IMG/VR virus record: IMGVR_UViG_3300027770_000050
Span: 22,316 to 86,315 of that record
Reading direction: 5' to 3' (one strand)
DNA length: 64,000 nucleotides
DNA from: a virus
Positions 28,790 to 64,000 of this stretch are shown in pieces. Both the position numbers and the translations under genes were made by a program. The notes under the pieces are model-generated. The model had not been told where the DNA came from, did not search any database, and saw only the letters and a program-made list of their open reading frames with translations. How positions within the stretch are numbered: the first letter of the stretch is position 1; every line of letters begins with the position of its first letter.

Positions 28790-28790
28790 G

Positions 28791-32627: not shown

Positions 32628-32630
32628 ATA

Positions 32631-41434: not shown

Positions 41435-41437
41435 AAT

Positions 41438-44400: not shown

Positions 44401-45874
44401 AGGAAAACTTACATACAGACCAGCTGATGAACAATTAAGTGTAACTTACATCACAGGTACAGCTTTTACTGCCACTAATCTTTATGGAACATTAATTGGC
44501 AATGTAACAGGTACAGCAACAACTTCAGAAAATGTAAACGTAAATACAACAACTAGAAGTATAGATCATTATCTGTTGTTTACAAATAGATCAAGTGGTT
44601 CTGGAGTTGCATTAACAACAAGCATAGTTGGTATGGGTTTAACTTACAATCCTGCCACAAATACTTTAGCAGCTCAATTTTTTACTGGGACAGCCACAAC
44701 ATCTAGTAATGTTGTTGTTAATACTACTACTATAAACCAGAATCATTTTCTGTTATTTTCAAATAGATCAAGTGGTTCTGGGATAGCGTTAACTGCAAGC
44801 ACTATTGGAATTGGATTTACTGTAAATCCAGCAGAAAATACATTATCAGCTGGATTATTTGCTGGAAATATTTCAGGTACTGGTGCTACTTTTGCAAGAG
44901 CTACATTTACTGATAACACTGAAGCAACTGATCAATTAACAGGTTCTGTAACATTTGCTGGTGGGATTGCTGTAAATAAAAAAGTATTTTCTCAAGCTAT
45001 TGAAACTAATGGAAATGCAATTATAAATGGTAATTTTCAAGCATTTGGTTCAATAATACAACTTGGAAATGCAGGATTAGCAGACACAATTGGATTTATT
45101 TGCAGAATTCAATCTATGATGATCCCTCAAGCTAATAACTCTTTTGATATTGGATTAAATGATGGCAGTTATGGTTGGAGAAATGCTGCATTTGCAGGGC
45201 ATGGAACATTTGCTAATTTATACGGATCTACTTCAGCTAATCTTACTGGTGTTGAATTTAGCGGAGGAGATGTATTAGTAAAAAGTGGTAAGTCAGTTAA
45301 ATTTTATGAAGCAAATAACACTTACAACACTTCTTTCAAAGCTAACTCAAGTTTAGCTGGAAATACTGATTACACTCTACCTGTCGGAAAACCTGGAACT
45401 GGAGCTTCAATCTTACAATCAGACACTGCTGGTTCTATGATATGGGTGAAAGCTGCAAGTAATAAAGCAACATATGTACTAAGCTTTGGTGCTGGTTTTA
45501 CTCCAACAACAGGTTTAGATAGTGTATCTATTGCTATTCCTTATGCTAATGATGGAAGTACACAATTAACATACACTATAAAGAGAGTAGAAGTTAGAAC
45601 TGAAACTGAACCTGGAGCATCAACATTAGCATTTTATTTTGAAAGACACACAACTGGAAATGCAACATGGACAGTTTCACCTATCACAATTAAGGGAGCA
45701 GCTAGTGCAAACTTTAGTGTAGCTCAAAACAATTATTCAAATTCATTTACAACAATAACTTCAAGTTCTGGAAATAATGGAGAAGTTCAATCAGGAAACT
45801 ATTTAAGAGTTAATTTTGCAACTGTTGGAGCTGCTGCAAATGTAAGCATATCTATAATGATCCAAGAAAATTAA
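41438..45874 (+). CDS. Mosaic repeat fibre protein with internal duplication, 1478 aa
   Basis: A fibre-like protein starting three bases after the S74 fibre gene. The N-terminus IDFPVNPSLNATYSKDGKTW plus WDGSRW is the same anchor as at 37529 and 47963. The body mixes [20 protein letters not shown] repeats with a second type (NNVHYLTFTLQ...GAALSTS...LTYRPADEQLSVT). A ~215-residue block (SFLKVTSTSGTALNIADRV through the TYILPPG and VTTGSQT lines) occurs twice, at about 42000-42640 and 43500-44130. The last ~150 residues (from about KATYVLSFGAGFTPTTG) form a unique, probably globular tip without an S74 or LEGPEHG domain. Its stop overlaps the convergent 184-aa gene by four bases. Confidence 0.85.
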   Translation: MPDIDFPVNPSLNATYSKDGKTWIWDGSRWRTNNILSYSGGGTGYASYNTGDLLVGTGNSLIKFPVGQNNFQYLRVDSANSASGVTWISLPLAGSGQSGLVSTLTQTFSGAKTFSSSIIGNLTGSATTSENVNVTTTTRSLTHYLTFTNQTSGSGLALTTSAIGIGFTVNPAQNTLAAGTFVGNLSGTAATTSFLKVTSTSGTALNIADRVTVYTVDNFEGLNINSNYSYALSVQDKANNNKFIVDVGNARTIFTGNSAAHEIRVYNNNESAYFGLKANSTGTQTYILPPGAPSTGSSILQSDNLGNMIWVPMATGGLTNAITSINSQTGPSITLQKGSSGTDFDIATTSNTVTFNLPDASASNRGLVTTGSQTFAGTKTFSSSISGNLSGTATTSQNVNTAAYTNNNVHYLTFTLQNNGAGAALSTSNTAGKLTYRPADEQLSVTFLTGTAFTATNLTGTLFGNVTGTSTTSQNVNTNVYTNNSVHYLIFTLQGSGSGAALSTSNSAGRLTYRPADEQLSVTNLTGTAFTATNFYGSLTGNVTGTATSSQNVNTNVFTNNSVHYLTFTLQGNGSGAALSTSNFAGKLTYRPTDEQLSVTFITGTAFTATNLYGTLFGNVTGTSTTSQNVNVTTTTRSATHYLTFTNATNGSGLALTTSSIGIGFTVNPAQNTLAAGTFVGDLSGTAVTTSFLKVISTSGTALNIADRVTVYTVDNFEGLNISSNYNFALSVQDKSNNNKFIVDVGNARTIFTGSSADHEIRVYNQNQSSYFGLKANATGSVTYILPPGKPSTGSSILQSDDSGNMIWVPMTTGGLANAVTSINSQTGPAITLQTGSSGTDFAISQSANTITFNLPDASASNRGLVTTGSQTIAGSKTFSSSILGNLSGTSTTSENVNVNTTTRSIDHYLIFTNSSSGSGVALTTSTVGSGLTYNPATNTLNALFFTGTATSSRNVHTAQYTNNNVHYLTFTLQGSGAGAALSTSGTAGKLTYRPADEQLSVTYITGTAFTATNLYGTLIGNVTGTATTSENVNVNTTTRSIDHYLLFTNRSSGSGVALTTSIVGMGLTYNPATNTLAAQFFTGTATTSSNVVVNTTTINQNHFLLFSNRSSGSGIALTASTIGIGFTVNPAENTLSAGLFAGNISGTGATFARATFTDNTEATDQLTGSVTFAGGIAVNKKVFSQAIETNGNAIINGNFQAFGSIIQLGNAGLADTIGFICRIQSMMIPQANNSFDIGLNDGSYGWRNAAFAGHGTFANLYGSTSANLTGVEFSGGDVLVKSGKSVKFYEANNTYNTSFKANSSLAGNTDYTLPVGKPGTGASILQSDTAGSMIWVKAASNKATYVLSFGAGFTPTTGLDSVSIAIPYANDGSTQLTYTIKRVEVRTETEPGASTLAFYFERHTTGNATWTVSPITIKGAASANFSVAQNNYSNSFTTITSSSGNNGEVQSGNYLRVNFATVGAAANVSISIMIQEN
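41997..44130 (+). repeat. Direct duplication of ~640 bases within the 1478-aa fibre gene
   Basis: Copies at about 41997-42640 and 43490-44130 encode nearly the same ~215 residues (NIADRVTVYTVDNFEGLNI, FIVDVGNARTIFTG, ILQSDxxGNMIWVPM, TSINSQTGPxITL). They differ mostly by synonymous or conservative changes. Between them lie three copies of the LTYRPADEQLSV repeat. The ends given are approximate. Confidence 0.8.
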
Positions 45875-46497: not shown

Positions 46498-47895
46498 ATG
46501 AGTCACGTTGTAAATCCAAATATACCTTTAGATGGTTTAATTTATTATATAGATCCATCTAATAGAAGATGCTTTTCAGGTTCAGGTGTAAATATTAATA
46601 ATTTAGTCACTTCTGGATTTGGAGGTACTTTATTTAATGGAACTACTACAGACGCAGAACTTAGAAAATCATTTATTTTTGATGGTTCTAATGATTATAT
46701 TACAGTTCCGTTACCGTATCCACTTACTACTGGAAGTTCTTTATCAATTTCATTATGGGCAAAATGGTTATCTGTAGGAAGTGGATCTACAAGGATACAA
46801 ACATTAGTTGATAATTCATTTTACGACAATGCTACTTCATATGGATTTGTTTTACAAGATAGACCTGATTTAGGTGGTGTTTTAGAATGGGCAGCTTCTC
46901 CGGGTAGTGGTGTTACAAGAGTTAGAACATCTTATTCTTTTGGTGATAATAACTGGCATCATATTGTAGCAACTAATAATGGAACAACTTCTAAATTATA
47001 TGTTGATGGAGTTAGTAATGCTTCAACACAGCTTGCAAATGGAATTGGTAACACTCAATCAACACTTGCTTTTGGAAGAAGAAACAGTGATGCAAGTAGA
47101 TATTTAAACGGATACTTATCAAATATTAAAATTTACAATAGAGAATTGACTGAAATTGAAATTGCACAAGATTATTATGCTTTAAGATCTAAATTTTATC
47201 CATTTCCGAATTATTCAACAAATGGATTAGTTCTCTATTATGATTTATCACAAACTGAAAGTTATCCTGGAAGTGGATCTGATATTTATGATTTATCTGC
47301 ATATACCAATGATGGTTCTTTATTAAATAATCCTACATACGTTTCATCAGGAGGAGGATATTTATCTTTTGATGGAGCTGATGATTTTGTTGCTTTAGAT
47401 AAAACAACAAGTATAAAGTTTACTAGAGATATGTCAATGGAAGCTTGGTTTACTGTAAATGCTGCCAACGATTCATTTGTTTGTGTTCTAGGATCTCAAT
47501 ATGGAACAGGGAACAACAATTCATATGCAATTTGGTTATATGATTTTGTATTGCAATCAGGAGTTTTAGTCACTTCTGTAATGCAAAACTTGACATATCC
47601 AGGATCTATTTCTTATGACACTTGGTATCACATTATTCACACATATGATGGCTCAAATCAATATATGTATGTAAATGGATCTCTTGCAGCATCAGGAGTA
47701 ACATCAGGAAATATTCTTCACAATGACAATAATACAAAAGTGACAATAGGTGCAGATTATGAAGTTGGATATAACTCTGGATTAAACGGATTTATGAAAG
47801 GAAGAGTGGGTTTAGTGCGTCTTTACAACAGAGCATTGTCGCAAGCTGAAGTAACTCAAAATTTTAATGACAGCAGAGCAAGATTTGGTTTATAA
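46498..47895 (+). CDS. Two-domain LamG-like lectin-fold protein, 465 aa
   Basis: Two LamG units of the array type lie in one chain. The first (about 1-235) has IYYIDPSNRRCFSGSG, SFIFDGSNDYITVP, NWHHIVATNNGTTSKLYVDG and IKIYNRELTEIEIAQDYY. The second (about 236-465) has VLYYDLSQTESYPGSG, YLSFDGADDFVALD, DTWYHIIHTYDGSNQYMYVN and LVRLYNRALSQAEVTQNF, ending ARFGL. The junction has no stop codon, so this looks like two array genes fused into one. It lies 9 kb downstream of the array, with no visible Shine-Dalgarno sequence. A sugar-binding appendage role is likely from the fold; the ligand is unknown. Confidence 0.85.
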   Translation: MSHVVNPNIPLDGLIYYIDPSNRRCFSGSGVNINNLVTSGFGGTLFNGTTTDAELRKSFIFDGSNDYITVPLPYPLTTGSSLSISLWAKWLSVGSGSTRIQTLVDNSFYDNATSYGFVLQDRPDLGGVLEWAASPGSGVTRVRTSYSFGDNNWHHIVATNNGTTSKLYVDGVSNASTQLANGIGNTQSTLAFGRRNSDASRYLNGYLSNIKIYNRELTEIEIAQDYYALRSKFYPFPNYSTNGLVLYYDLSQTESYPGSGSDIYDLSAYTNDGSLLNNPTYVSSGGGYLSFDGADDFVALDKTTSIKFTRDMSMEAWFTVNAANDSFVCVLGSQYGTGNNNSYAIWLYDFVLQSGVLVTSVMQNLTYPGSISYDTWYHIIHTYDGSNQYMYVNGSLAASGVTSGNILHNDNNTKVTIGADYEVGYNSGLNGFMKGRVGLVRLYNRALSQAEVTQNFNDSRARFGL

Positions 47896-48727: not shown

Positions 48728-51700
48728 ATGGCAGAAAATAACAATCCTCAAGATTTTGCAGAAAAGGTTTTGCAATCTCTTAAAAAACAATCCAGAGCAG
48801 TAGATTTATCTGATAACAACTTTGAGGAAACTGCTGTTCAGCAAGAAACTGTTGTTAAGCAAGAAACTGTTGTTAAGCAAGAAATTGTTCAACCTGTTTC
48901 CCAAGATTTTACTGCGTTGGGAAGTCAATTACAAGGTGGTTTGGGACCAGCAAGTGGTGGCAATAAAGATCTTGTTGTAGTCCCTGGTTACGGTGGAACT
49001 GCTGCAACATCTACATCACAAATAAACTTCTACTGGAATGCTCCTGCTGTACCTGACTCAACAGGTGTGGATACAAATGTAAGAGCAACTATTTTCAACT
49101 ACGCTACTTCTGTAACTAACCCTGTTCTTGTCATTGGTGGTTATAACGGTACTTCACAGTTCAAACCACACCCTACTTATGGTGGCGGAACAGGTGTTAC
49201 TGCTAAAATATTTATAGATCCATTCTTGGGTAGAATTGATGTTGATCAAATTGGTCTCAACTCTACTGGTGTTGGTATTTCAACTGATGCTGGTATTCTT
49301 ACTTATGATACCACACAGAGCAGACTTAGAGTAGGATTGAGTGGTATCGCTAAAACTGTTGCATTTACTGATGATATTCCAGTCACATCAGGATTTGCTA
49401 CAACTGCTAGAAATGTTGATTTAGTATCAGGTGCTAATAACGCTTCTCATTTCCTTACTTTCTCACTTACTTCAACTGGTTCAGGTGTTGCTCTTTCTTC
49501 TGACGCTGAACTTACATATAATCCATCAACTAATATCTTAACAGCAACAACTTTTTCAGGAGCTTTATCTGGTACTGCAACTACTGCTCAAAATGTAAAC
49601 CTTGCTGCTGGAGCAAATGCCGCAAATCACTCTGTTGTATTCTCACTCAACGCAACAGGTACAGGAGTTGGATTATCTAGTGACGCTGGATTACAATATA
49701 ATCCTGCTACAAATGTACTTACTGCAGACGTATTCTCTGGTAACTTTACTGGTACTGCTGCGACAGCTACAAACTTCTTTGGAACATTTGTAGGCAACTC
49801 TTCAACTGCGACTACTGCGTCTAATGTTAATGTCGTCGCAGCTACAACTGCAGCATCACACTTTATCACTTTCTCTCCAGCATCTTCAGGAAGTGGTTTA
49901 GCTACTTCTGCTGACGCTGATCTTACATATAACCCAGCAACAAACGTGTTGTCTGCTTCTGTTTTTACTGGTAACTTTACTGGAACAGCAGTCACCGCTA
50001 CAAACTTCTTTGGTACATTGACAGGTAATGTAACTGGAAATCTTACTGGAACAGCTACTACTTCACAAAATGTGAATACCACAGCAGCAACTACAGCTGG
50101 TGCTCACTTTGTATTATTTTCTCCAGTAAACGCTACTGCTTCTGGAGTAGCAGTATCATCTGATGCTCAATTGCAGTTCAATCCAGGAACTAATGTACTT
50201 ACAGCTGATGTATTTTCAGGTAACTTTTCAGGAGCCGCAGCAACAGCTACTAACTTCTATGGGACATTAACTGGTAATGTAACTGGAAATGTTACAGGAA
50301 CAGCTACTACCGCTCAAAATGTAAACACTACATCAGCTGCAACTGCTAGTGCTCACTTCTTATTGTTTAGCCCAGTCAATGCTACTGCTTCTGGAGTAGC
50401 TGTTTCATCAGATGGTACATTACAGTTCAATCCTGGCACAAATGTTCTTTCTACAGATGTATTCTCTGGTAACTTTACTGGCACTGCTGCTACAGCCACT
50501 AACTTCTATGGAACATTAGTAGGCAATGTTACAGGAACAGCCACTACTGCTCAAAACGTCAACTTAGCTGCTGGTGCAAACAATGCAAACCACGCTGTAG
50601 TTTTCTCATTAAACTCAACTGGATCAGGCGTTGCGTTATCTTCTGATGCTGCGTTACTCTACAATCCATCAACTGACACTTTATATTCAACAAACTTTAG
50701 CGGAGCATTCTCAGGTACAATTACTGGCATTGCAACATCATCTAGAAATATAGATTTACAAGAAGCTACTGCAAACTCTACACATTATGTAACTTTTTCT
50801 CCATTAATAGCATCTCCATCATCAAACGCTGGTGTTGCATTATCATCTGACTCAAGCTTAACATTTAACCCATCTACTAATGTATTCTCATTAAGTACTG
50901 GTAGTTTGATAGCTAATAGTGTAAGAGTGGGTACTAGTGCAAACACTGTTGATACATCATCAGGAAACTTAACTTTAGATTCTGCTGGCGGACAAGTAAA
51001 CATCAATGACAATGTTATAATCCAAGGTAATCTTACTGTTCAAGGCACTACACTTACAGTTGATTCAACAATTACTACCATAGTTGATCCTGTCATTGTT
51101 TTAGGTTCAGGTGTTGGCGGAACACACTCTACTGCAGACAATAATCAAGACAGAGGTGTTGAGTTTAGATATGCAAGTAGTGGTACTGCTATTACAGGCT
51201 TCTTTGGCTTCCAAGACTCTGATTTTAAATTTAGATTTATACCTAATGCTACATTATCTGGAACAAATGTTTACAGTGGAAATGTTGGTGTCATAGTTGC
51301 AACATTAGAAGGCAATGTGTCAGGAACAGCTGTAACTGCTACAAACTTCTATGGAGCACTTACAGGAAATGTAACTGGAAATCTTACAGGAACAGCTACT
51401 ACAGCACAAACTCTCAATACAGTTTCAGCAACAACTGCTGCATCTCACTTTGTATTGTTCTCTCCAGCAAACGGAGCTTCTGGTGTTGCTGTATCAAGTG
51501 ATGCTCAACTTACCTACAATCCTAATACTGATGTACTTTCTGCGACTACATTCTCAGGTGCATTAACAGGTACAGCAACTACAGCTCAAAACTTGAACTT
51601 AGCTGCTGGTGCTAATAACTCTAACCACTCAGTTGTATTCTCATTAAATGCTACTGGATCTGGTGTAGCATTATCCAGTGACGCTCAATTAACATATAAT

Positions 51701-53473
51701 CCTTCTACTGATTTATTGTCAGCAACAACATTTTCAGGAAATGTCACTGGAACTGCTGTTACTGCAACAAACTTCTACGGAACCCATGTTGGGAACGTAA
51801 CTGGAAATGTTACAGGCTCAGCGACTACAGCAACAAATATAAATACAACTGCTGCTACAACAGCAGGAGCTCACTATTTACTATTCAGTCCAGTTAATGC
51901 TACTGCTTCAGGAGTGGCTGTTTCCTCAGACTCAACATTACAGTTCAACCCAGGAACAAATGTATTAACTACTGATGTTTTCTCTGGAAACTTCACGGGT
52001 ACTGCTGCTACTGCTACTAACTTCTATGGAACATTAACCGGAAATGTTACTGGAAACTTGACAGGAACTGCTACAACTGCTCAAAATATCAATACAACTG
52101 CTGCTACTACAGCAGGAATTCATTATTTATTATTTTCCCCAGTAAACGCAACTGCTTCAGGAGTTGCAGTATCTAGTGATACTACTTTACAGTTTAATCC
52201 AGCAACAAATGTACTTACCACTGATGTATTCTCAGGTAACTTTACAGGTACAGCAGTCACAGCTACAAACTTCTACGGAACATTCCAAGGATCTTCAGCT
52301 ACAGCAGTCACATCGCAAAATATAAATGTCGTTGCAGCGACTACTGCAGCAACACACTTCATTACATTTGCTACAGCTTCTTCTGGTAGTGGATTAGCAG
52401 TTTCTGCAGATACTGATTTGACTTATAACCCAAGTACAAATGTTTTATCTGCTTCTGTTTTCTCTGGAAACTTTACAGGTACCGCTGCAACTGCAACAAA
52501 CTTCTACGGAACATTAACTGGAAATGTAACAGGTAACTTAACAGGAACAGCCACTACATCTCAAAATATAAATACAACTGCAGCAACTACTGCTGGAGTT
52601 CACTATTTATTGTTCTCACCAGTAAATGCTACTGCTTCTGGTGTCGCAGTATCGTCTGATTCAACATTGCAGTTCAATCCAGCAACTAATGTTCTTACTA
52701 CTGATGTATTCTCAGGAAATGTTTCTGGTACTGCAGTTACAGCTACAAACTTCTATGGTACTTTTAATGGAACATCAGCTACAGCAACTACTGCGCAAAA
52801 TGTAAACGTAGTAGCTGCTGCATCTGCTGGTGCTCACTTCTTGCTCCTTGCTTCTGCAGCAAGTGGTAGTGGATTAGCAGTATCTTCAGATGCACAGTTG
52901 TCATATGTTCCAACAACTGACACACTTTCAGTAAGTAATATATTTGGAAGTGGTGCTGGTCTTACATTATCGGCCTCAGCTGCTCTAACAAACAACTCTT
53001 ACTTGACTATCCAAACGGTATCTGGTGATGACGCTTCTACTAGCGATTTCTTCATTAGAGGTATTACTTCTGGTGCTTCATCTAAGTTCTCCGTTGACGC
53101 AAATGGTAACTTAAGAGCTACAACCAAGAGCTTTGATATAGATCACCCTACAAAACCTGGTAAAAGACTAGTATACGGTGTTCTTGAAGGCCCTGAACAT
53201 GGTGTTTATCATAGAGGAACAGTTGAGGGTAAGGGCAATCTATTAATAGAACTTCCTGATTACTGGAGCAAGCTCGTAAATGATGACTACACTGTAACTC
53301 TTACTACTTATGGTAACTATTCAGTTCACATCATCGAGAAGTCAATGAATTCCTTTATAATTGGATTAAATGGACTAATGTTTATTAATAAATTTAAAAA
53401 TATTAAAGTTGATTATTTAGTACATGGTTCTAGAATAGACGCTCCACTTATTATTGAACAAGACGATCACTAA
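48728..53473 (+). CDS. Long repeat fibre with LEGPEHG C-terminal domain, 1581 aa
   Basis: The N-terminus differs from the other fibres: a helical start (NPQDFAEKVLQSLKKQSRAV), then a short tandem VVKQETVVKQEIV, and a beta domain to about residue 210 (VVVPGYGGTAATSTSQINFY). From about residue 230 to 1400 it carries some 14 copies of a ~80-aa repeat ([55 protein letters not shown]) in several flavours, interrupted near residues 740-870 by a segment with LTVQGTTLTVDSTITTIVDP that recurs at 59870-60250. The last ~115 residues are the KSFDIDHPTKPGKRL-LEGPEHGVYHRG domain, as in the gene before. GGAG precedes the ATG, and a hairpin follows the stop. Confidence 0.88.
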   Translation: MAENNNPQDFAEKVLQSLKKQSRAVDLSDNNFEETAVQQETVVKQETVVKQEIVQPVSQDFTALGSQLQGGLGPASGGNKDLVVVPGYGGTAATSTSQINFYWNAPAVPDSTGVDTNVRATIFNYATSVTNPVLVIGGYNGTSQFKPHPTYGGGTGVTAKIFIDPFLGRIDVDQIGLNSTGVGISTDAGILTYDTTQSRLRVGLSGIAKTVAFTDDIPVTSGFATTARNVDLVSGANNASHFLTFSLTSTGSGVALSSDAELTYNPSTNILTATTFSGALSGTATTAQNVNLAAGANAANHSVVFSLNATGTGVGLSSDAGLQYNPATNVLTADVFSGNFTGTAATATNFFGTFVGNSSTATTASNVNVVAATTAASHFITFSPASSGSGLATSADADLTYNPATNVLSASVFTGNFTGTAVTATNFFGTLTGNVTGNLTGTATTSQNVNTTAATTAGAHFVLFSPVNATASGVAVSSDAQLQFNPGTNVLTADVFSGNFSGAAATATNFYGTLTGNVTGNVTGTATTAQNVNTTSAATASAHFLLFSPVNATASGVAVSSDGTLQFNPGTNVLSTDVFSGNFTGTAATATNFYGTLVGNVTGTATTAQNVNLAAGANNANHAVVFSLNSTGSGVALSSDAALLYNPSTDTLYSTNFSGAFSGTITGIATSSRNIDLQEATANSTHYVTFSPLIASPSSNAGVALSSDSSLTFNPSTNVFSLSTGSLIANSVRVGTSANTVDTSSGNLTLDSAGGQVNINDNVIIQGNLTVQGTTLTVDSTITTIVDPVIVLGSGVGGTHSTADNNQDRGVEFRYASSGTAITGFFGFQDSDFKFRFIPNATLSGTNVYSGNVGVIVATLEGNVSGTAVTATNFYGALTGNVTGNLTGTATTAQTLNTVSATTAASHFVLFSPANGASGVAVSSDAQLTYNPNTDVLSATTFSGALTGTATTAQNLNLAAGANNSNHSVVFSLNATGSGVALSSDAQLTYNPSTDLLSATTFSGNVTGTAVTATNFYGTHVGNVTGNVTGSATTATNINTTAATTAGAHYLLFSPVNATASGVAVSSDSTLQFNPGTNVLTTDVFSGNFTGTAATATNFYGTLTGNVTGNLTGTATTAQNINTTAATTAGIHYLLFSPVNATASGVAVSSDTTLQFNPATNVLTTDVFSGNFTGTAVTATNFYGTFQGSSATAVTSQNINVVAATTAATHFITFATASSGSGLAVSADTDLTYNPSTNVLSASVFSGNFTGTAATATNFYGTLTGNVTGNLTGTATTSQNINTTAATTAGVHYLLFSPVNATASGVAVSSDSTLQFNPATNVLTTDVFSGNVSGTAVTATNFYGTFNGTSATATTAQNVNVVAAASAGAHFLLLASAASGSGLAVSSDAQLSYVPTTDTLSVSNIFGSGAGLTLSASAALTNNSYLTIQTVSGDDASTSDFFIRGITSGASSKFSVDANGNLRATTKSFDIDHPTKPGKRLVYGVLEGPEHGVYHRGTVEGKGNLLIELPDYWSKLVNDDYTVTLTTYGNYSVHIIEKSMNSFIIGLNGLMFINKFKNIKVDYLVHGSRIDAPLIIEQDDH
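49420..52960 (+). repeat. About 14 tandem ~80-codon repeats in the 1581-aa fibre
   Basis: The repeat unit runs roughly FSGN-(F/L/V)[16 protein letters not shown](VTGN)TGTATT-(A/S)QN-N-(T/V)AATTA-H(Y/F)(L/I)[31 protein letters not shown]. Length varies mainly by an optional GNVTGN or GSSATA insertion. The DNA of the units is close enough for recombination between them. Confidence 0.88.
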
Positions 53474-53479
53474 AAATAA

Positions 53480-53510
53480 AAAGAAGGGAGGGAAACCTCC
53501 CTTCTTTAAA
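53480..53510 (+). terminator. Hairpin terminator after the 1581-aa fibre gene
   Basis: A perfect 12-base stem (53480-53491, core GAAGGGAGG, with 53496-53507) and a GAAA tetraloop lie 7 bases after the stop codon. The stem ends in TTT followed by AAAT, so the downstream T tract is short. The A run before the stem gives a better T tract on the minus strand. It probably ends or trims transcripts of the fibre operon before the last giant gene. Confidence 0.75.
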
Positions 53511-53529
53511 TATCACCAAGGTAAATGAA

Positions 53530-53787
53530 ATGCACAAATTTAGGATTTTGTTAGCCTCGAATTTAAATGCTGCTTGGATTTCTATTGAAGAAGGCAACAT
53601 AAATATCGAAACAGGCATAAGAATAATGTATTCACTTCATGATTATGAAATGAATACATTAGAAAGAAGAGTATTTCAAATTAACGGTGATGATTTTTCA
53701 AACATTGGACTTAGTGGAAAAGACACTAGAATTGCAATTTTAGAATTATTGCTTGATACTCTCAACGCAATTATAGTTAAGGAATAA
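53530..53787 (+). CDS. Small hypothetical protein, 85 aa
   Basis: An unrecognised protein starting MHKFRILLASNLNAAWISIE, with mixed strands and helices (NINIETGIRIMYSLHDYEMN; RIAILELLLDTLNAIIVKE). An ATG six bases upstream is out of frame and stops after nine codons. AAGG 8 bases before the chosen ATG supports this start. It lies alone between the hairpin at 53480-53510 and the last giant fibre gene, with an 8-base gap to the latter, and may be an assembly helper for it; that is a guess from position. Confidence 0.65.
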   Translation: MHKFRILLASNLNAAWISIEEGNINIETGIRIMYSLHDYEMNTLERRVFQINGDDFSNIGLSGKDTRIAILELLLDTLNAIIVKE

Positions 53788-53795
53788 AATAATTA

Positions 53796-56700
53796 ATGGC
53801 TACAGATGTCATCATAGAACCTGGATCGGGTCAAATTTATTGGAATGATAGCGCTGGTTCTTCGCAATCAATTTCTATAAAAGGTGATGCTCAAAATACA
53901 ATTTCTGTAGTAGGTTATAGTGGTGCTTTTTCTCCTGGAAGTTCTGCTGGTGGAACTTTTGTAATTGCTTCTTTTAATGATAACTCAGGTACTTCTGCAT
54001 TTATTCCCGGAACTACTAACTACGATCTTGGTTCAACTACATACAGATGGTCAGTATATGGATACACTGGTAACTTTAGTTCTGATGTAGTTATTTCTTC
54101 CTCAACACAATCAACATCTGTAACTTCAGGTGCTTTAAGAGTTAATGGTGGTGTTGGTATTAGTGGCAGAATGTACTTCAATACTGCTGCTATGGGAACA
54201 ACAGGTATTGCTTCACCTCCAACATTTGCTTTTATTGGTTCTACTGGTGATCCAATATTTCTTCAAGTTTTAGAAGACAATTCACTTTCTTTTGAAGGAT
54301 CACAAGGACAGTTATTTTCTATAACTCCTAACCTTTCAACAGGTTATATTTATTCTGTTAATGATATTACAGGTATTCCATTATTACGTGCAAATGCTAA
54401 TGCTAATGTAACTGCTAATGAATTTGGTGGCAATTTTGGTATTGGAGTTACAAATCCTGGATACAAACTTCATGTAGTTGGTTCTGTCGGTTTTACTTCT
54501 ATTTCTGCTTCTACTAATCCAACTTCTGGAACATTAGTTGTTTCAGGAGGAGTTGGTGTTGGTCAGACATTAAATATTGGTGGAAGATTAAATCTTTGGA
54601 ACTCTGCTAATACTAACTTTACTTCTTTTGTAAGTACTGCAACTGGAAATACAGTATACAATCTGCCAGCCACTACTCCTGCTACAGGTACTTCAGTATT
54701 ACAATCAGATAGTGTTGGAAATCTTTCATGGGTTGGATTTGTTGCTAATAGTGCTAGCATCGCTACAACTGCTCAAAATATTAATACTGTTTTTGCAAGC
54801 ACTAATTCAACTCATCATATCTTGTTTTCTCCAGTAAATGGTGGATCTGGAGTTGCTGTTTCATCTGATAGTGGATTTACTGTCAATCCTGCCACAAATG
54901 TAATCACAGCAAATACATTCTCGGGAAATATTTCAGCAACTGGAACTACATCTGGATTTGTTGGAGTTACAGATAATACAGCTTCAACAAGTACTACAAC
55001 TGGAGCTTTAGTTGTTACTGGTGGAGTTGGTATTGGTCAGTCTGTCAATATTGGTGGAAGAGTTGGCATTGGTACTAACTTACTAAATGCTGCTTTAAAT
55101 ATTCAACTTCCATCTACTGCTACTTCTGGTATCGTTATAAAAGGGAATGGTTCCCAAACAGCAGATGCAATAACAACATTTAGCTCAACAGGAACTACTA
55201 ATTTTGCAGTTGGAGCTGATGGTCGTGTCAGACTTACTGGCATGGATGGTATTTGGACTTCCAAAGTACAGCAAAACATATTTGATGTGTCGGACGGAAG
55301 AGTAAACTGGAATTTATCAACCTGGCAATATTCAAACATAAACTGGGTTACAGCTGGAGCTAATATTACACAAGCTTCAGGACAGTTGTACATATATAAT
55401 TCTGGAACAACTTCTGTCACAGGTGTTGGTATTATTGCAACAGGATGGGATACTAGTGGAGCTAATAGAGTTTTTGGAATATTAACTCCTTCTGGCACAG
55501 AAAGATCATTTTTTAGAGGTTATGGAAACCTTGTAATTAATCCTAATAACCCCAACGGTTTGCATACTGCTTGGAATACCATGGATCTTATTACCTTGGA
55601 TATTTCTGGAACTGCGACAACATATTCTGGAAATATTATTAAGGGTAGTGTTGAATCAGTAGAAAGATTTTCCGTTGGTCCCTTTGGTAACACAAAAATT
55701 ACAGTTGGTACAGCTACTACTGCTACAGGTTTTATCGTTAAGGCAGTAGCATCTCAAACTGGAAACTTAATAGAAACACAATCATCAGCAGGAGCGACTA
55801 ATTTCTATGTAACTCCTAGTGGTGCAGTTAATGTTGGTTCTACAGCAGCATCAATTTCTACTTCTTCTGGAGCATTAACTGTATCTGGTGGAGTTGGTAT
55901 AGGTGGAAGTTTATACGTAGCATCAGCAACTGCAATATCAGGAGTAACAATAAATTCTGGTGTTATTACTGGTACTTTATCAGGATATGCAACAACAGCA
56001 AGAAATACTGATGTTTCACTTGCATCAACAAATTCTACTCACTTTGTAACCTTCACCACTGCTTCTTCAGGATCAGGATTAGGACAATCTGCTGACGCAG
56101 ATCTTACTTATAATCCATCAACAAATGTTCTTACAACTGGAACATTTAGTGGAAACTTATCTGCTACAGGTGTTACATCAGGTTTAGTTAGTGTCACAAG
56201 TTCAACAGCTTCCACATATATGGCTAATGGTGCACTTACTGTTTCTGGTGGAGTTGGTATTTCAGGACAATTATCTTTCAATAGAGCAGCTATTGGATAT
56301 ACTGGCATACCTACTAACCCAACGATGGCATTTATTGGAACAACAGGTAATCCCATAACACTTACTGTTCTTGCAGATAATGGTTTACAATTTGAAGGTA
56401 CATCCGGAAAGTTATTTGGCATAAATAATAATCTTTCTACTGGATTTATCTTTAGTGTTGGTGATATTTCAGGTATTCCATTATTAAGAGCTAATGCAGA
56501 TGGAACTGTAGCAATGGGAGAATTTGCTGGAAATATTGGAATAGGAATGTCCAATCCAGCATTCAAGTTGCATGTTATAGGATCAGTTGGTTTTACTTCA
56601 GTCACAGCATCAACAAATCCAACCTCAGGAACATTAGTAGTTTCTGGTGGTGTGGGAATTGGACAATCCTTAAATGTTGGTGGAAGATTACATTTATGGA

Positions 56701-59700
56701 ATGCTGCAAATACAAACTTTACTGCATTCTTAAGTGCTGCATCTGGAAATCATACATATACTTTACCTGCTAATGTACCATCTACAGGAACTTCAGTATT
56801 ACAAGCTGATACTTCTGGTATTTTGTCATGGGTTGGATTTAGTGCTAATAGTGCAAGTATAGCTACAACTTCTCAAAACCTAAATACAGTTGCTTCTACT
56901 ACATCTGCATCACACTTCCTGTTGTTCTCTCCAACTAATGGTGCTTCTGGAGTAGCTGTTTCATCTGATGCTCAATTAACTTATAACCCTGCAACTGATG
57001 TTCTTACAGCAAGTGTATTCAGTGGTAATGTCTCAGCTACTGCAGTAACCTCGACTAACTTTTTTGGAACTCTCACTGGAAATGTAACTGGAAATGTAAC
57101 AGGTACAGCTACTACTTCACAAAATGTAAACACTGTAGCTGCAACAACCTCAGCAACTCACTATCTTACTTTCTCTCCTGTAAATGGGGCATCTGGAGTA
57201 GCTTTATCTTCTGATGCTAATCTTACATTTAATCCAAGCACTAACGTTTTAACAACAGATATATTCTCTGGTAATTTATCTGCTACTGCTGTTACATCTG
57301 GATTTGTTGGAGCAACAGCATCTACACCTTCAACATCAACAACTACTGGAACTTTAGTTGTAACTGGTGGAGTTGGTATTGGACAATCTCTAAATGTTGG
57401 TGGAAGAGTTGGTATTGGCACTGATTTACTTACTGGTCAAATCAATATTAAAACTTCTTTAGCTGCAACTCCTGGCTTAGTAGTTCAAGGAGCAGCATCA
57501 CAAACAGCTGATTACGCACAGTTTTTTACTTCTACTGGTACCACATCATTAAGCATAACTAAAGATGCTGAAATAAAATTTCCTTTAGCTCAAGACATCA
57601 AATTATATGCGACAGCTTATGGTTCTGTTGGTGCAATAAAAACTACGGGCAACTTTTTTGCCTACGGTGGTTTAATTTTTGCTTATGGTGTTTCTGACGC
57701 ATTGTCAGCAGTGTTATCACCAACTTCTTTGTCAATAAGTCAATTGGACTGGTCTACATATAGTTCAGGCGCTACAATCAGATGGGCTACTAATAATGCA
57801 GTCAGAATACAACCTACTTCAACTTCTGTAGTACCTTTACATGTTCAACTTCAAAATGCTTCTTGGACTTCTGGAAATGCTTTTGAAATAGAAAACAATG
57901 GCACTTTAAAATTCAAAGTTGATTATGCTGGATCAACAACAATCTTATCAACAGTTGGATCAGGTTCTACAACCACTGGAGCATTAGTAGTAAGTGGTGG
58001 TGTTGGAATTTCTGGAGCAATATTTGGTGGTTCAACTATTTCTGCAGCTGATAATATTGAAATTAGATCAGCAAAAGAATTAAGACTTAATAACTCTGGA
58101 AATACATTCTACACTGGATTTAAAGCTGGGGCAAATGCTTCTAACACTACCTATACCTTCCCAGCAGCATATCCAGGATCAGGAACATCAGTATTACAAT
58201 CAGACACATCAGGTACCTTAACTTGGGTTGGAATTGTAGGAACCGCAACTACTTCACAAAATGTTAATTTAGCTGCAGGAGCTAATAACTCAAATCATTC
58301 AGTAGTCTTCTCATTAAATGCTACTGGTTCTGGAGTTGCTTTATCTAGTGATGCTGGTTTGCAATACAACCCATCAACAAACGTATTAACTGCAGATGTA
58401 TTCTCAGGTAATGTAAGTGCAACTGCTGTAACTGCAACAAACTTCTTCGGTACATTCCAAGGATCTTCAGCAACTGCAGTAACATCTCAAAATATAAACA
58501 CTACATCAGCTACTACTGCAGCAGCTCACTATTTATTATTTAGCCCTGTAAATGCAACTACATCTGGAGTTGCTGTTTCATCAGACTCTTCATTACAGTT
58601 CAATCCAGCAACTAATGTTCTTACTGTTGATGTATTCTCTGGAAATCATACAGGAACAGCTTTTACTGCAACAAACTTCTTTGGTACATTGACTGGTAAT
58701 GTAACAGGCAACTTAACTGGAACAGCAACTACTTCTCAGAATGTAAATACTGTTGCAGCTACTACATCTGCATCACACTTTATTACATTCTCTCCAGTCA
58801 ATGGTGCATCAGGTGTAGCATTATCATCAGACGCTAACCTTACATTCAATCCAAGTACTAATGTATTAACAACAGATATATTCTCTGGAAATGTAAGTGC
58901 TACCGCAGTTACTTCAACTAACTTCTTTGGAACACTGACTGGAAATGTCACTGGAAATCTAACTGGTACTGCTACTACAGCACAAAATATCAACCTAGCT
59001 GCTGGAGCAAATAATTCCAATCACTCTGTTGTATTCTCATTAAATGCTACAGGAACAGGTATAGCATTATCTTCAGATGCTGGATTACAATATAACCCTG
59101 CTTCAAATGTATTGACTGCTGATGTATTTTCTGGAAATGCTTCTGGAACAGCTGCAACATACACTAACTTCTTTGGTACACTAACAGGTAATGTAACTGG
59201 AAATCTTACTGGTACAGCTACTACATCTCAAAATATTAATACAACATCCGCAACTACTGCGGGAGCTCACTATTTATTATTTAGTCCTGTAAATGCAACT
59301 GCTTCAGGAATTGCTGTTTCAAGTGATGCTACCTTACAATTCAACCCTGGCACTAATGTTCTTACAACCGATGTATTCTCTGGAAACTTAAGTGCTACAG
59401 CTGCTACAGCTACTAATTTCTTTGGTACATTAGTTGGAAATTCATCTACTGCTACAACAGCTTCTAACTTAAATGTTGTTTCAGCTACAACAAACTCTGC
59501 ACATTATATAACATTCTCCCCTGCATCAAGTGGAAGTGGTTTAGCTACCTCAGCAGACACTGATTTATCTTATAATCCAAGTACTAATGTCATGACTGCT
59601 GGAGTTTTCTCTGGAAACTTCACAGGAACAGCTGCCACTGCAACTAACTTCTTCGGAACATTAGTTGGCAATTCTTCAACAGCAACAACAGCACAAAATG

Positions 59701-62700
59701 TTAATCTTGCAGCTGGAGCAAATGCAGCTAACCATTCTATTGTATTCTCATTAAATGCTACTGGATCTGGAGTAGCATTATCATCAGATGCAGAACTTCA
59801 ATACAATCCGTCAACAAATGCACTATCTGTTGGAACTGGTAATATTACTGCAAATGCTGTAAGAATAGGAAATTCAGCTAATACCGTTGATACTTCATCA
59901 GGAAACTTAACATTAGATTCAACTGGTGGACAAGTAAACATCAATGACAATGTTGTAATCCAAGGTAATCTTACAGTACAAGGCACTACACTTACAGTTG
60001 ATTCAACAATTACTACAATTGTTGATCCTGTCATTGTTCTAGGATCTGGTGTTGGAGGAACACACTCTACTGCTGACAATAATCAAGACAGAGGTATTGA
60101 GTTCAGATATTCCAATGGTGGAACTGCTGTAACTGGATACTTTGGCTTCCAAGATACTGATTTTAAATTTAGATATATTCCTAATGCTACTCTTTCTGGA
60201 ACAAATGTATATTCAGGAAATGTTGGTGTAATTGTAGCAACATTAGAAGGTAATGTTTCAGCAACTGCAGTTACAGCTACAAACTTCTATGGTACTCTTG
60301 TTGGTAATACTGCAACAGCTACTACATCTCAAAATATAAATACTACTACAGCAGCTACTGCAAGTGCTCACTATATTTTATTTAGTCCTGTAAACGCAAC
60401 TACTTCTGGTGTCGCAGTTAGTTCAGACAGCACTTTACAATTCAACCCTGGAACAAATGTACTTACAACAGACGTATTCTCTGGAAACCTTAGTGCTACC
60501 GCAGCTACTGCTACTAATTTCTTTGGTACTCATGTTGGTGCTGTAACTGGAAATGTTACTGGCACTGCGACAACAGCACAAAATTTAAATACTACAGCTG
60601 CAACTACCGCAGGTGCACACTATTTATTATTCTCTCCAGTAAACGCAACAGCTTCAGGGGTAGCAGTATCGTCTGATTCAACATTACAGTTCAACCCTGG
60701 TACTAATGTTCTTACAACAGATGTATTTTCAGGTAATTTATCAGGAACAGCAGTAACTGCAACTAATTTCTTTGGAACATTAGTCGGCAATTCTTCTACT
60801 GCAACAACAGCAAGTAATTTAAATATAAACCCTGCTTCAGCAAATAGTCTTCATTATATTACTTTTTCAACAGCATCATCGGGTAGTGGATTAGCAAGTT
60901 CAACTGATACTGATTTAACTTATAATCCTGGAACCAATGTTCTTGTTGCAGGTGTTTTCTCTGGTAACCTTAGTGCTACTGCTGCCACTGCCACTAACTT
61001 CTTTGGAACACTTACTGGAAATGTAACAGGCACTGCTACAACAGCACAAAACTTAAATACTACAGCTGCTACAACAGCTGGTGCTCACTATTTATTATTT
61101 AGCCCTGTAAATGCTACAGCTTCAGGAGTTGCGGTATCCTCAGATTCAACACTTCAGTTCAATCCGGGTACTAATGTTCTTACAACAGATGTTTTCTCAG
61201 GAAATCTTAGTGCTACTGCAGCAACAGCAACAAACTTCTTTGGAACACTTACTGGAAATGTTACTGGAAACTTAACTGGAACAGCCACAACTGCACAAAA
61301 TATTAATTTGGCAGCTGGTGCAAATAACTCAAATCATTCTGTAGTCTTTTCATTAAATGCTACTGGAACAGGTATAGGATTATCTAGTGACGCTGGTTTA
61401 CAATATAATCCTTCTACAAACTTACTTACTGCAGATGTATTCTCAGGAAACTTTACAGGAACTGCTGCTACCGCAACTAATTTCTATGGAACTCATATTG
61501 GTGCTGTAACTGGTAATGTATCTGGAAACGTAACTGGAACTTCTACTACATCTCAAAATGTAAACACAGTAACAGCCACTACAGCAGCTATTCACTATAT
61601 TACTTTTTCTCCTGTAAATGGTGCAAGTGGAGTTGCACTTTCAAGTGACACTCAACTTACATATAATCCTGGTACTGACGTATTAACTGCATCTGTATTC
61701 TCTGGAAATGTAACTGGAACAGCAATAACTGCTACCAACTTCTACGGTACTCTCGTAGGCAATACTGCAACAGCCACTACTTCACAAAATATAAACACAA
61801 CAGCTGCAACGACAGCTGGAACTCATTATCTGTTATTTAGTCCAGTCAATGCTACAGCTTCAGGTGTAGCAGTGTCATCCGATTCTACGTTACAGTTCAA
61901 CCCTGGGACTAATGTTTTAACAACGGATGTATTCTCTGGTAACTTCACAGGTACAGCAGCCACTGCAACTAACTTCTTTGGAGCATTGACTGGAAACGTT
62001 ACAGGTACTGCTACAACTTCACAAAATGTTAATTTAGCTGCAGGTGCCAATAATTCAAGTCATTCAATAGTCTTTTCTTTGAACGCTACTGGTTCTGGCG
62101 TTGCTCTTTCAAGTGATGCGCAATTAACATATAATCCTTCAACTGATGTATTGTCTGCAACTACTTTCTCAGGAAATGTGAGCGGAACTGCAATAACTTC
62201 CACAAACTTCTTTGGAACATTGACAGGAAATGTTACTGGAAACCTTACTGGAACTGCAACTACTTCACAAAATGTAAACTTAGCTGCGGGTGCTAATAAT
62301 TCAAATCACTCTGTGATTTTTTCATTGAATGCAACAGGAACAGGAGTAGGATTATCAAGTGATGCTGGTTTACAATATAACCCATCAACTAATGTTATTA
62401 CAGCTGATGTATTTTCTGGTAATCATACTGGAACTGCATTTACGGCAACAAACTTCTTCGGAACATTAGTTGGCAATTCATCAACAGCTACTACATCTCA
62501 AAATGTAAACACTGTAACAGCTACTACATCAGGTGTTCATTATATAACATTCTCCCCGGTGAACGGAGCATCAGGGGTAGCACTTTCCTCAGATACTCAA
62601 CTTACTTACAATCCTGCTACTGACGTACTTTCAGCTACTACATTCTCTGGAAATGCAACTGGTACTGCAATAACTGCTACAAACTTCTATGGTACTTTAA

Positions 62701-64000
62701 TAGGAAGCGTTGGTTCTGCTACAACATCACAAAATATCAATACCACAGCTGCAACTACTGCTGGAGCTCATTATTTATTATTTAGTCCGGTAAATGCTAC
62801 TGCTTCAGGTGTAGCAGTTTCATCAGATGCTCAGTTACAATTCAATCCAGGAACTAACGTCCTTACCGTTGATGTATTTAGTGGTAACTTAAGTGCTACC
62901 GCTGCCACAGCAACTAACTTTTACGGTACTCATATAGGTAACGTAACAGGTACTGCAACTACTTCTCAAAACATCAATACAGTAACAGCTACTACTGCAG
63001 CTGTCCATTACCTAACATTCTCTCCTGCAAACGGAGCGAGTGGAGTAGCGTTGAGTAGTGATACTCAACTTACTTACAATCCTGCTACAGACGTATTGTC
63101 ATCAACTACATTCTCTGGAAACTTATCAGGTACTGCTGTAACATCTACGAACTTCTTTGGAGCTTTGACTGGAAATGTTACTGGAGCGGCTACAACTGCT
63201 CAAAATATAAATACAACTAGCGCAACAACTGCTGGAGCTCACTATTTATTATTTTCCCCAGTAAATGCAACAGCAAGTGGAGTAGCTGTTTCTTCTGATT
63301 CAACATTGCAGTTCAACCCAGCAACAAATGTATTAACTACTGATGTTTTCTCTGGAAATTTATCTGCAACAGCAGCAACCGCTACAAACTTCTTTGGAAC
63401 ATTGACTGGAAATGTTACTGGCACAGCTACAACAGCACAAAATATTAACTTAGCTGCTGGTGGAAATAACTCAAACCATTCTGTAATATTCTCATTAAAT
63501 GCTACTGGTACAGGCGTTGGATTATCAAGTGATGCAGGATTACAATATAACCCATCAACGAATGTTCTTACTGTTGATGTATTCTCTGGAAACTTCACAG
63601 GAACTGCAGCTACTGCCACCAACTTCTTTGGTACTCATGTTGGTGCTGTAACTGGTAATGTCACAGGTACTGCAACAACATCTCAAAATGTCAACACTGT
63701 ATCAGCAACCACAGCTGGTGTTCACTATATTACATTCTCTCCTATCAATGGTGCATCAGGTGTTGCCTTAAGTAGTGATGCCCAACTGACTTACAATCCT
63801 GCCACTGATGTACTTTCTGCTACAACTTTCTCAGGAAATGTTACCGGAACAGCAATAACAGCAACTAACTTCTACGGTACTCTTATAGGAAGTGTTGGAT
63901 CAGCAACTACTTCACAAAATATCAACACAACAGCAGCAACAACTGCCGGTGTTCATTATTTATTATTTAGTCCAGTAAATGCTACTGCTTCAGGAGTAGC
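53796..64000 (+). CDS. Giant repeat fibre protein, at least 3401 codons, runs off the window end
   Basis: From the ATG at 53796 (MATDVIIEPGSGQIYWNDSA) one reading frame stays in register with the repeats to base 64000, so the product exceeds 3400 residues. The first ~1480 codons are a mosaic of modules known from the other fibres: GALVVTGGVGIGQSVNIGG, a FIGSTGDPIFLQVLEDNS module present twice (about 54200 and 56320), NPGYKLHVVGSVGFTS and TVYNLPATTPATGTSVLQSD. From about 58240 on it is almost purely ~80-codon repeats in four flavours, about 23 in the visible part. A segment at ~59870-60250 nearly repeats one in the 1581-aa gene. The C-terminus, where a chaperone domain would be expected, is outside the window. 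It is likely the longest appendage of the virion. Confidence 0.88.
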   Translation, partial: MATDVIIEPGSGQIYWNDSAGSSQSISIKGDAQNTISVVGYSGAFSPGSSAGGTFVIASFNDNSGTSAFIPGTTNYDLGSTTYRWSVYGYTGNFSSDVVISSSTQSTSVTSGALRVNGGVGISGRMYFNTAAMGTTGIASPPTFAFIGSTGDPIFLQVLEDNSLSFEGSQGQLFSITPNLSTGYIYSVNDITGIPLLRANANANVTANEFGGNFGIGVTNPGYKLHVVGSVGFTSISASTNPTSGTLVVSGGVGVGQTLNIGGRLNLWNSANTNFTSFVSTATGNTVYNLPATTPATGTSVLQSDSVGNLSWVGFVANSASIATTAQNINTVFASTNSTHHILFSPVNGGSGVAVSSDSGFTVNPATNVITANTFSGNISATGTTSGFVGVTDNTASTSTTTGALVVTGGVGIGQSVNIGGRVGIGTNLLNAALNIQLPSTATSGIVIKGNGSQTADAITTFSSTGTTNFAVGADGRVRLTGMDGIWTSKVQQNIFDVSDGRVNWNLSTWQYSNINWVTAGANITQASGQLYIYNSGTTSVTGVGIIATGWDTSGANRVFGILTPSGTERSFFRGYGNLVINPNNPNGLHTAWNTMDLITLDISGTATTYSGNIIKGSVESVERFSVGPFGNTKITVGTATTATGFIVKAVASQTGNLIETQSSAGATNFYVTPSGAVNVGSTAASISTSSGALTVSGGVGIGGSLYVASATAISGVTINSGVITGTLSGYATTARNTDVSLASTNSTHFVTFTTASSGSGLGQSADADLTYNPSTNVLTTGTFSGNLSATGVTSGLVSVTSSTASTYMANGALTVSGGVGISGQLSFNRAAIGYTGIPTNPTMAFIGTTGNPITLTVLADNGLQFEGTSGKLFGINNNLSTGFIFSVGDISGIPLLRANADGTVAMGEFAGNIGIGMSNPAFKLHVIGSVGFTSVTASTNPTSGTLVVSGGVGIGQSLNVGGRLHLWNAANTNFTAFLSAASGNHTYTLPANVPSTGTSVLQADTSGILSWVGFSANSASIATTSQNLNTVASTTSASHFLLFSPTNGASGVAVSSDAQLTYNPATDVLTASVFSGNVSATAVTSTNFFGTLTGNVTGNVTGTATTSQNVNTVAATTSATHYLTFSPVNGASGVALSSDANLTFNPSTNVLTTDIFSGNLSATAVTSGFVGATASTPSTSTTTGTLVVTGGVGIGQSLNVGGRVGIGTDLLTGQINIKTSLAATPGLVVQGAASQTADYAQFFTSTGTTSLSITKDAEIKFPLAQDIKLYATAYGSVGAIKTTGNFFAYGGLIFAYGVSDALSAVLSPTSLSISQLDWSTYSSGATIRWATNNAVRIQPTSTSVVPLHVQLQNASWTSGNAFEIENNGTLKFKVDYAGSTTILSTVGSGSTTTGALVVSGGVGISGAIFGGSTISAADNIEIRSAKELRLNNSGNTFYTGFKAGANASNTTYTFPAAYPGSGTSVLQSDTSGTLTWVGIVGTATTSQNVNLAAGANNSNHSVVFSLNATGSGVALSSDAGLQYNPSTNVLTADVFSGNVSATAVTATNFFGTFQGSSATAVTSQNINTTSATTAAAHYLLFSPVNATTSGVAVSSDSSLQFNPATNVLTVDVFSGNHTGTAFTATNFFGTLTGNVTGNLTGTATTSQNVNTVAATTSASHFITFSPVNGASGVALSSDANLTFNPSTNVLTTDIFSGNVSATAVTSTNFFGTLTGNVTGNLTGTATTAQNINLAAGANNSNHSVVFSLNATGTGIALSSDAGLQYNPASNVLTADVFSGNASGTAATYTNFFGTLTGNVTGNLTGTATTSQNINTTSATTAGAHYLLFSPVNATASGIAVSSDATLQFNPGTNVLTTDVFSGNLSATAATATNFFGTLVGNSSTATTASNLNVVSATTNSAHYITFSPASSGSGLATSADTDLSYNPSTNVMTAGVFSGNFTGTAATATNFFGTLVGNSSTATTAQNVNLAAGANAANHSIVFSLNATGSGVALSSDAELQYNPSTNALSVGTGNITANAVRIGNSANTVDTSSGNLTLDSTGGQVNINDNVVIQGNLTVQGTTLTVDSTITTIVDPVIVLGSGVGGTHSTADNNQDRGIEFRYSNGGTAVTGYFGFQDTDFKFRYIPNATLSGTNVYSGNVGVIVATLEGNVSATAVTATNFYGTLVGNTATATTSQNINTTTAATASAHYILFSPVNATTSGVAVSSDSTLQFNPGTNVLTTDVFSGNLSATAATATNFFGTHVGAVTGNVTGTATTAQNLNTTAATTAGAHYLLFSPVNATASGVAVSSDSTLQFNPGTNVLTTDVFSGNLSGTAVTATNFFGTLVGNSSTATTASNLNINPASANSLHYITFSTASSGSGLASSTDTDLTYNPGTNVLVAGVFSGNLSATAATATNFFGTLTGNVTGTATTAQNLNTTAATTAGAHYLLFSPVNATASGVAVSSDSTLQFNPGTNVLTTDVFSGNLSATAATATNFFGTLTGNVTGNLTGTATTAQNINLAAGANNSNHSVVFSLNATGTGIGLSSDAGLQYNPSTNLLTADVFSGNFTGTAATATNFYGTHIGAVTGNVSGNVTGTSTTSQNVNTVTATTAAIHYITFSPVNGASGVALSSDTQLTYNPGTDVLTASVFSGNVTGTAITATNFYGTLVGNTATATTSQNINTTAATTAGTHYLLFSPVNATASGVAVSSDSTLQFNPGTNVLTTDVFSGNFTGTAATATNFFGALTGNVTGTATTSQNVNLAAGANNSSHSIVFSLNATGSGVALSSDAQLTYNPSTDVLSATTFSGNVSGTAITSTNFFGTLTGNVTGNLTGTATTSQNVNLAAGANNSNHSVIFSLNATGTGVGLSSDAGLQYNPSTNVITADVFSGNHTGTAFTATNFFGTLVGNSSTATTSQNVNTVTATTSGVHYITFSPVNGASGVALSSDTQLTYNPATDVLSATTFSGNATGTAITATNFYGTLIGSVGSATTSQNINTTAATTAGAHYLLFSPVNATASGVAVSSDAQLQFNPGTNVLTVDVFSGNLSATAATATNFYGTHIGNVTGTATTSQNINTVTATTAAVHYLTFSPANGASGVALSSDTQLTYNPATDVLSSTTFSGNLSGTAVTSTNFFGALTGNVTGAATTAQNINTTSATTAGAHYLLFSPVNATASGVAVSSDSTLQFNPATNVLTTDVFSGNLSATAATATNFFGTLTGNVTGTATTAQNINLAAGGNNSNHSVIFSLNATGTGVGLSSDAGLQYNPSTNVLTVDVFSGNFTGTAATATNFFGTHVGAVTGNVTGTATTSQNVNTVSATTAGVHYITFSPINGASGVALSSDAQLTYNPATDVLSATTFSGNVTGTAITATNFYGTLIGSVGSATTSQNINTTAATTAGVHYLLFSPVNATASGV
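58240..64000 (+). repeat. About 23 tandem ~80-codon repeats at the end of the giant fibre
   Basis: Units of roughly 230-250 bases follow one another to the window edge, broken once at about 59800-60260 by a non-repeat segment. Four flavours alternate without a fixed order: [59 protein letters not shown] and [19 protein letters not shown]. All share [12 protein letters not shown] and NPxTNVLTxDVFSGN connecting parts. The continuation beyond 64000 is not visible. Confidence 0.9.

Follow-up and report, generated by a model that had tools for sequence, protein, structure and literature searches.

The open reading frame that starts at position 53796 of the analysed window (64,000 nucleotides, positions 22,316 to 86,315 of the virus record IMGVR_UViG_3300027770_000050) very likely represents the beginning of a genuine gene whose product is an exceptionally long adhesion fibre. 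The virus would be a tailed jumbo phage of about 300 kb, and the fibre would consist of a constant anchor, a shaft of variable modules and a tip that is missing from the record. On the plus strand, positions 53796-63998 are free of stop codons for 3401 codons and the final residues are SPVNATASGV. The first-pass annotation had described a frame of at least 10.2 kb, encoding more than 3400 residues without a stop, and this description agrees with our reading, in which the frame runs in phase to ATASGV at base 64000. The 86,315-bp record itself stops at this base, so that the 3' end of the frame and the C-terminus of the protein are absent. In 200 sequences of equal length simulated with a first-order Markov model, stop-free runs reached at most 231 codons, compared to 3401 observed, and the five remaining frames over 53796-64000 contain 104-364 stops each. 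The ATG at 53796 is a credible start, since it is preceded by an in-frame TAA at 53790 and, immediately 5', by AAGGA, and since the N-terminus is kept in independent contigs. An exact search for a 3' continuation with 33 bases near the contig end gave no match in the viral contigs covered, a set that may lack near-identical records. We also ruled out that the gene continues, across a circular junction, in the frame that is open at the left end of the contig, as the contig ends do not overlap and that frame lacks the repeat units and matches other structural families. The visible part of the gene is organised as follows:

53796-64000, plus strand: open fibre gene (protein P0001), 3401 visible codons, 3' end missing; based on frame reading, record length and simulations.
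53796-54170, plus strand: conserved N-terminal domain (residues 1-125), the presumed virion anchor, 42-66% identical to five independent fibre sequences.
54147-54500, plus strand: module 1 (residues 118-235), with a second copy at 56247-56600 (residues 818-935); also found in other fibre genes.
Residues 313-372, 710-781, 1019-1072 and 1074-1155, plus strand: four earlier, scattered repeat units, detected with the unit profile.
55002-55823, plus strand: module 2 (residues 403-676), with an 81% identical counterpart at residues 1243-1516 of P0007, the product of a non-orthologous fibre gene in a 316-kb relative.
57288-58181, plus strand: modules 3 and 4 (residues 1165-1462), of which module 4 is 81-90% identical to P0007 and P0010.
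58179-59831, plus strand: seven repeat units of about 80 aa (residues 1462-2012), detected with the unit profile.
59832-60245, plus strand: module 5 (residues 2013-2150), which recurs with 88% identity in the sister gene at 48728-53473.
60246-63998, plus strand: sixteen more repeat units, detected with the unit profile up to the contig end.
60954-61928, plus strand: block of four units (units 15-18), duplicated as units 24-27 at 63108-63998 with 79% DNA identity.

The repeat length of about 80 residues proposed in the first-pass annotation was recovered, with intact units of 77-86 aa and 27 profile-detected units in the frame. Altogether, four genes of the contig carry the unit family, with 59 matches. 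The proposal of a very long repeat fibre is strengthened by coding selection, the conserved anchor, the tip domain of the orthologues and the position in a fibre and lectin locus, but the notion of a uniform shaft has to be given up in favour of a mosaic of units and unique modules.

Among 28 intact units (77-86 aa) from the fibre gene and its upstream sister, the mean difference was 0.54 at codon position 3 and 0.24 at positions 1 and 2. The far stronger divergence of third positions indicates long and strong selection on the units at the protein level. The closest pairs of units share 96% protein identity with at most 83% DNA identity, which argues against recent or artificial duplication of units. 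No exact repeats of 40 bp or more were found in 48728-64000, so that collapse or expansion of the repeats during assembly, which the first-pass annotation had wished to see checked, is unlikely. The diverged DNA of the copies points in the same direction. It is very improbable that the gene is an assembly product in which units from several fibre genes or strains were misjoined. Such loci appear hard to assemble, as this contig and that of the relative L018 both stop inside a long fibre gene, and the orthologues are far shorter than 3401 aa. However, the assembler had no long identical stretch on which to jump, the frame is open and under selection along its whole length, and the upstream sister gene retains the 14-unit layout of its orthologue. 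The ends of the two contigs in such genes may also be a sign that strain variation in repeat-fibre genes breaks assemblies.

Orthologues of the fibre gene were recovered by an alignment search with the N-terminus, and more were found via the conserved 85-aa gene directly upstream. A direct search with the first 568 residues retrieved no relatives, whereas the alignment-based searches found them. Complete orthologues have lengths of 1131, 1589, 1592, 1622, 947 and 1034 aa. The fibre of the window has two to four times the length of its relatives and surpasses even the longest by a factor of at least 2.1, with its C-terminus still to be added. Four orthologues are referred to below:

IMGVR_UViG_3300032245_001860: orthologue L017/L039, 1131 aa.
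3300034093_005467: orthologue L022, 1592 aa.
3300032297_000956: orthologue L031, 1622 aa.
3300007171_000004: orthologue L041, 947 aa.

All four have the same N-terminal domain as the window fibre and the 85-aa gene directly upstream; in L017 and L022 the correspondence extends to the LamG genes of the window and to the sister gene for a repeat fibre further upstream. The N-terminal consensus of the orthologous group is MATDVIIDPxxGQIYWND, and about 120 residues are conserved, with 51-66% identity between the window fibre and L017, L022 and L031. The orthologues of 1131-1622 aa terminate in a tip domain with the motif SFxIxHPTK (phrog_17490, phrog_28536), and the most distant ones (947 and 1034 aa) carry a different C-terminus. 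Besides its length, the window fibre differs from its orthologues in the number of repeat units: 27 were detected by the unit profile, whereas three orthologues contain 1-3 and the two most distant ones have no such unit.

The order of the units reveals where part of the additional length came from. Units 15-18 match units 24-27 as a collinear block at an offset of nine units or about 2.1 kb, and none of 500 random reorderings of the units gave an equally good block match. This indicates that the gene gained length partly by duplicating multi-unit blocks in the shaft. Modules were also exchanged with other fibre genes of the lineage, as is shown by the modules they share, which in themselves give no direction of movement. 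Module 5 and its surroundings (149 residues) have 84% DNA identity to the sister gene, the highest value among the copies. For module 2, identity to the non-orthologous P0007 is 81%, yet the anchors of true orthologues reach just 51% for the fibre gene and 58% for the gene at 28791-31868 compared with P0007. The latter gene, the window counterpart of P0007, lacks module 2 and encodes 1025 aa instead of 2440 aa. Because modules 2 and 5 resemble non-orthologous genes more than the anchors resemble those of orthologues, we conclude that modules move between fibre genes of this lineage. A wholesale copy of the sister-gene shaft was considered as the origin of the shaft and ruled out, since the unit order is not collinear and module 5 and the unit types alone are common to both genes. 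We regard the protein as a conspicuous length variant within a type that is already known, and the evidence on how its gene grew is good.

Searches with P0001 gave no significant match in Pfam or NCBIfam and none among PDB sequences, where the best hit was an unrelated nanobody (E = 0.38). Its PHROG matches are families of unknown function or structural proteins, the best annotated being phrog_697 ('head and packaging, structural protein'). Neither a tip or trimerisation domain nor a Peptidase_S74 domain was found in the visible part of the fibre, the missing end lying outside the data. Modelled as a monomer, three units came out as all-beta, but the pLDDT of 43 means very low confidence and made the model unusable for a fold search. 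Among isolates, fibre-like proteins of, for example, Flavobacterium phage immuto and the Synechococcus cyanophages S-SSM7 and S-PRM1 have the C-terminal tip of phrog_17490/phrog_28536 in common with the sister gene and the orthologues, one of which is 54% identical to immuto in the tip domain. The relationship to these fibres is confined to the tip, while the shaft and the anchor of the window gene are without close match in isolates.

In its presumed way of working, the fibre can be compared with the long tail fibre of T4 (gp34/gp37), which likewise has an anchored N-terminus, a long beta-rich shaft and a distal C-terminal receptor end. There is, however, no detectable sequence relation to any solved fibre, and the single chain encoded in the window is longer than gp34 and gp37 together. 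A second link to T4 leads through one orthologue, whose shaft octads (GNVSGNVTG) match the C-terminal beta-helix needle of gp5 in PDB and PHROG searches. In the window gene, octad stretches occur as short inserts in the units of about 80 aa, and P0001 itself gives no match to gp5. The octad matches support a rod-like shaft. In T4, the 1289 aa of gp34 correspond to 700 Å and the whole long fibre measures 144 nm (PMC3004832). By this scaling, the visible 3401 aa would extend over about 185 nm (about 0.18 µm) if they are rod-like, a figure that is an extrapolation and not a measurement, and a single polypeptide would then rival or exceed the T4 long fibre. The appendage of hundreds of nanometres suggested in the first-pass annotation is likewise an extrapolation. 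The literature yielded no usable record lengths of fibres, and we therefore make no claim of a record.

We regard it as rather unlikely that, instead of one long rod, the mature product stays far below the length expected from its residue number, be it that the units form separate globular domains, that the fibre is bent or coiled, or that the chain is cleaved once it has been made. In favour of this view, the shaft is broken up by several modules other than repeats, the unit model gives no usable information, and one of the sister genes bears an S74 domain of the self-cleaving chaperone family, indicating that processing occurs in this locus. Against a shorter object, the octads of one orthologue match a straight trimeric rod, every unit in the window gene has a short motif that resembles these octads, and the fibre itself, as far as it is visible, gave no match to S74.

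The genes upstream of the fibre on the plus strand form a locus of structural proteins, fibres and lectins:

53530-53787, plus strand: conserved 85-aa gene directly upstream of the fibre, a candidate assembly partner.
48728-53473, plus strand: sister repeat fibre of 1581 aa, complete, with 14 units (unit profile) and an HPTK-type tip domain (tip match).
46498-47895, plus strand: protein with two LamG domains (domain match).
37529-45874, plus strand: two further fibre genes, encoding 1301 and 1478 aa, in which the ~80-aa unit occurs in diverged form; the first gene (37529-41434) ends in a Peptidase_S74 chaperone domain.
31875-37466, plus strand: eight tandem genes with the LamG lectin fold (PF13385; domain match).
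23273-31868, plus strand: a pair of long structural genes encoding 1838 and 1025 aa, the latter corresponding to P0007 (2440 aa) in the 316-kb relative.

This setting bears on the position of the fibre on the virion. It is unlikely, although less so than a coiled or processed chain, that the protein is not a tail fibre of the baseplate but forms hairs or whiskers elsewhere (tail sheath, neck or head) that serve as decoration or for adhesion in general. Jumbo phages with such appendages exist: CBB has hairs of 119 nm, the gene for which is unidentified (PMC5259590), and PTm1 and PTm5 bear head fibres (PMC13282480). In addition, the sequence gives no position of the N-terminus on the virion, and the label of phrog_697 refers to the head. 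On the other hand, the surrounding genes resemble a locus for fibres and lectins that includes an S74 chaperone, and related tip domains occur in isolate genes that are annotated as tail fibres, although annotation based on repeats is weak either way. Two long frames outside the fibre locus also match structural families. The frame of 2874 aa at the left end of the contig (L009:3-8627, left of the window, 5' end missing) matches tail-fibre and head-decoration families in PHROG, and a 1939-aa gene on the minus strand at 3794-9613 matches PHROG families of head decoration and of virion structure at several points.

The 85-aa gene lies directly 5' of the fibre gene in all relatives examined, always encodes 85 aa with 44-75% identity and falls below the usual size cut-offs for ORFs. 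Its product has a predicted beta-beta-beta-beta-alpha-alpha-beta fold (pLDDT 83), for which no match was found in the PDB (best E 0.13), and BFVD gave uncharacterised phage proteins alone. A role as fibre assembly factor is possible. A perfect 12-bp hairpin at 53480-53507, between the sister gene and the 85-aa gene, has a terminator-like score on the minus strand and may separate the two fibre transcripts. In the sister fibre, seven units are followed by a module and seven further units, and its orthologue P0006 has the same layout with 14 units. Comparison of the sister fibre (48728-53473) with L017:8747-13414 revealed exactly 14 units in both phages at 53% protein identity. The unit number of the sister gene thus seems to have been held constant while that of its neighbour expanded. 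Near the N-terminus of the sister fibre, an 18-bp tandem repeat of 3.5 copies (48827-48889) codes for ETVVKQ. The eight LamG genes overlap and encode about 225-250 aa each. Their products end alike (NYNATKxRYGL) but have diverged in the middle, where identity to the first is 22-46%, and the array looks like an interchangeable set of adhesins. L017 has a similar array and another LamG gene downstream of its fibre. LamG domains have been linked to jumbo-phage fibres before (PMC7824862).

Although the contig comprises only 86 kb, its PhoH and topoisomerase II are 77-83% identical to genes of contigs with 315,852 and 300,536 bp, and the record is probably a piece of a jumbo phage genome of about 300 kb. 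Isolate phages are distant; they share about 23-26% identity with the terminase found in the 316-kb relative, and a search for near-identical DNA in isolate phages gave no match. No match to psbA was found in any of the records, and a search for the Gp23 family was likewise negative in the records, but carries no information, as its controls were negative too. A metagenomic group of jumbo phages of similar size has been described as the 'moraphage' lineage (PMC12619734).

Taken together, we propose that the conserved N-terminal domain (residues 1-125) would anchor the fibre to the virion, and that the shaft of ~80-aa units and unique modules, which is probably beta-structured and trimeric, sets its reach. 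The missing C-terminus most likely bears the HPTK tip domain of the closest orthologues, which may bind or aid folding. The gene would have outgrown its orthologues by duplication of multi-unit blocks and exchange of modules with other fibre genes, and the fibre, the sister fibres and the LamG lectins probably act in binding to the host surface. A more speculative and, on present evidence, doubtful extension is that the protein belongs to the longest single-chain phage fibres, with 0.2 µm or more and a reach set by unit number, and that reach and binding are adjusted within the lineage as shaft modules are reshuffled across four or more sister fibre genes, which are paired with interchangeable LamG lectins. 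Over one conserved anchor, the fibre gene spans 947 to at least 3401 residues and thereby offers a natural series for studying the evolution and the benefit of fibre reach. The conservation of a shaft piece at 81% in another gene, compared to 51-58% for the anchors, indicates that shafts act as interchangeable parts in the fibre genes of a jumbo phage.
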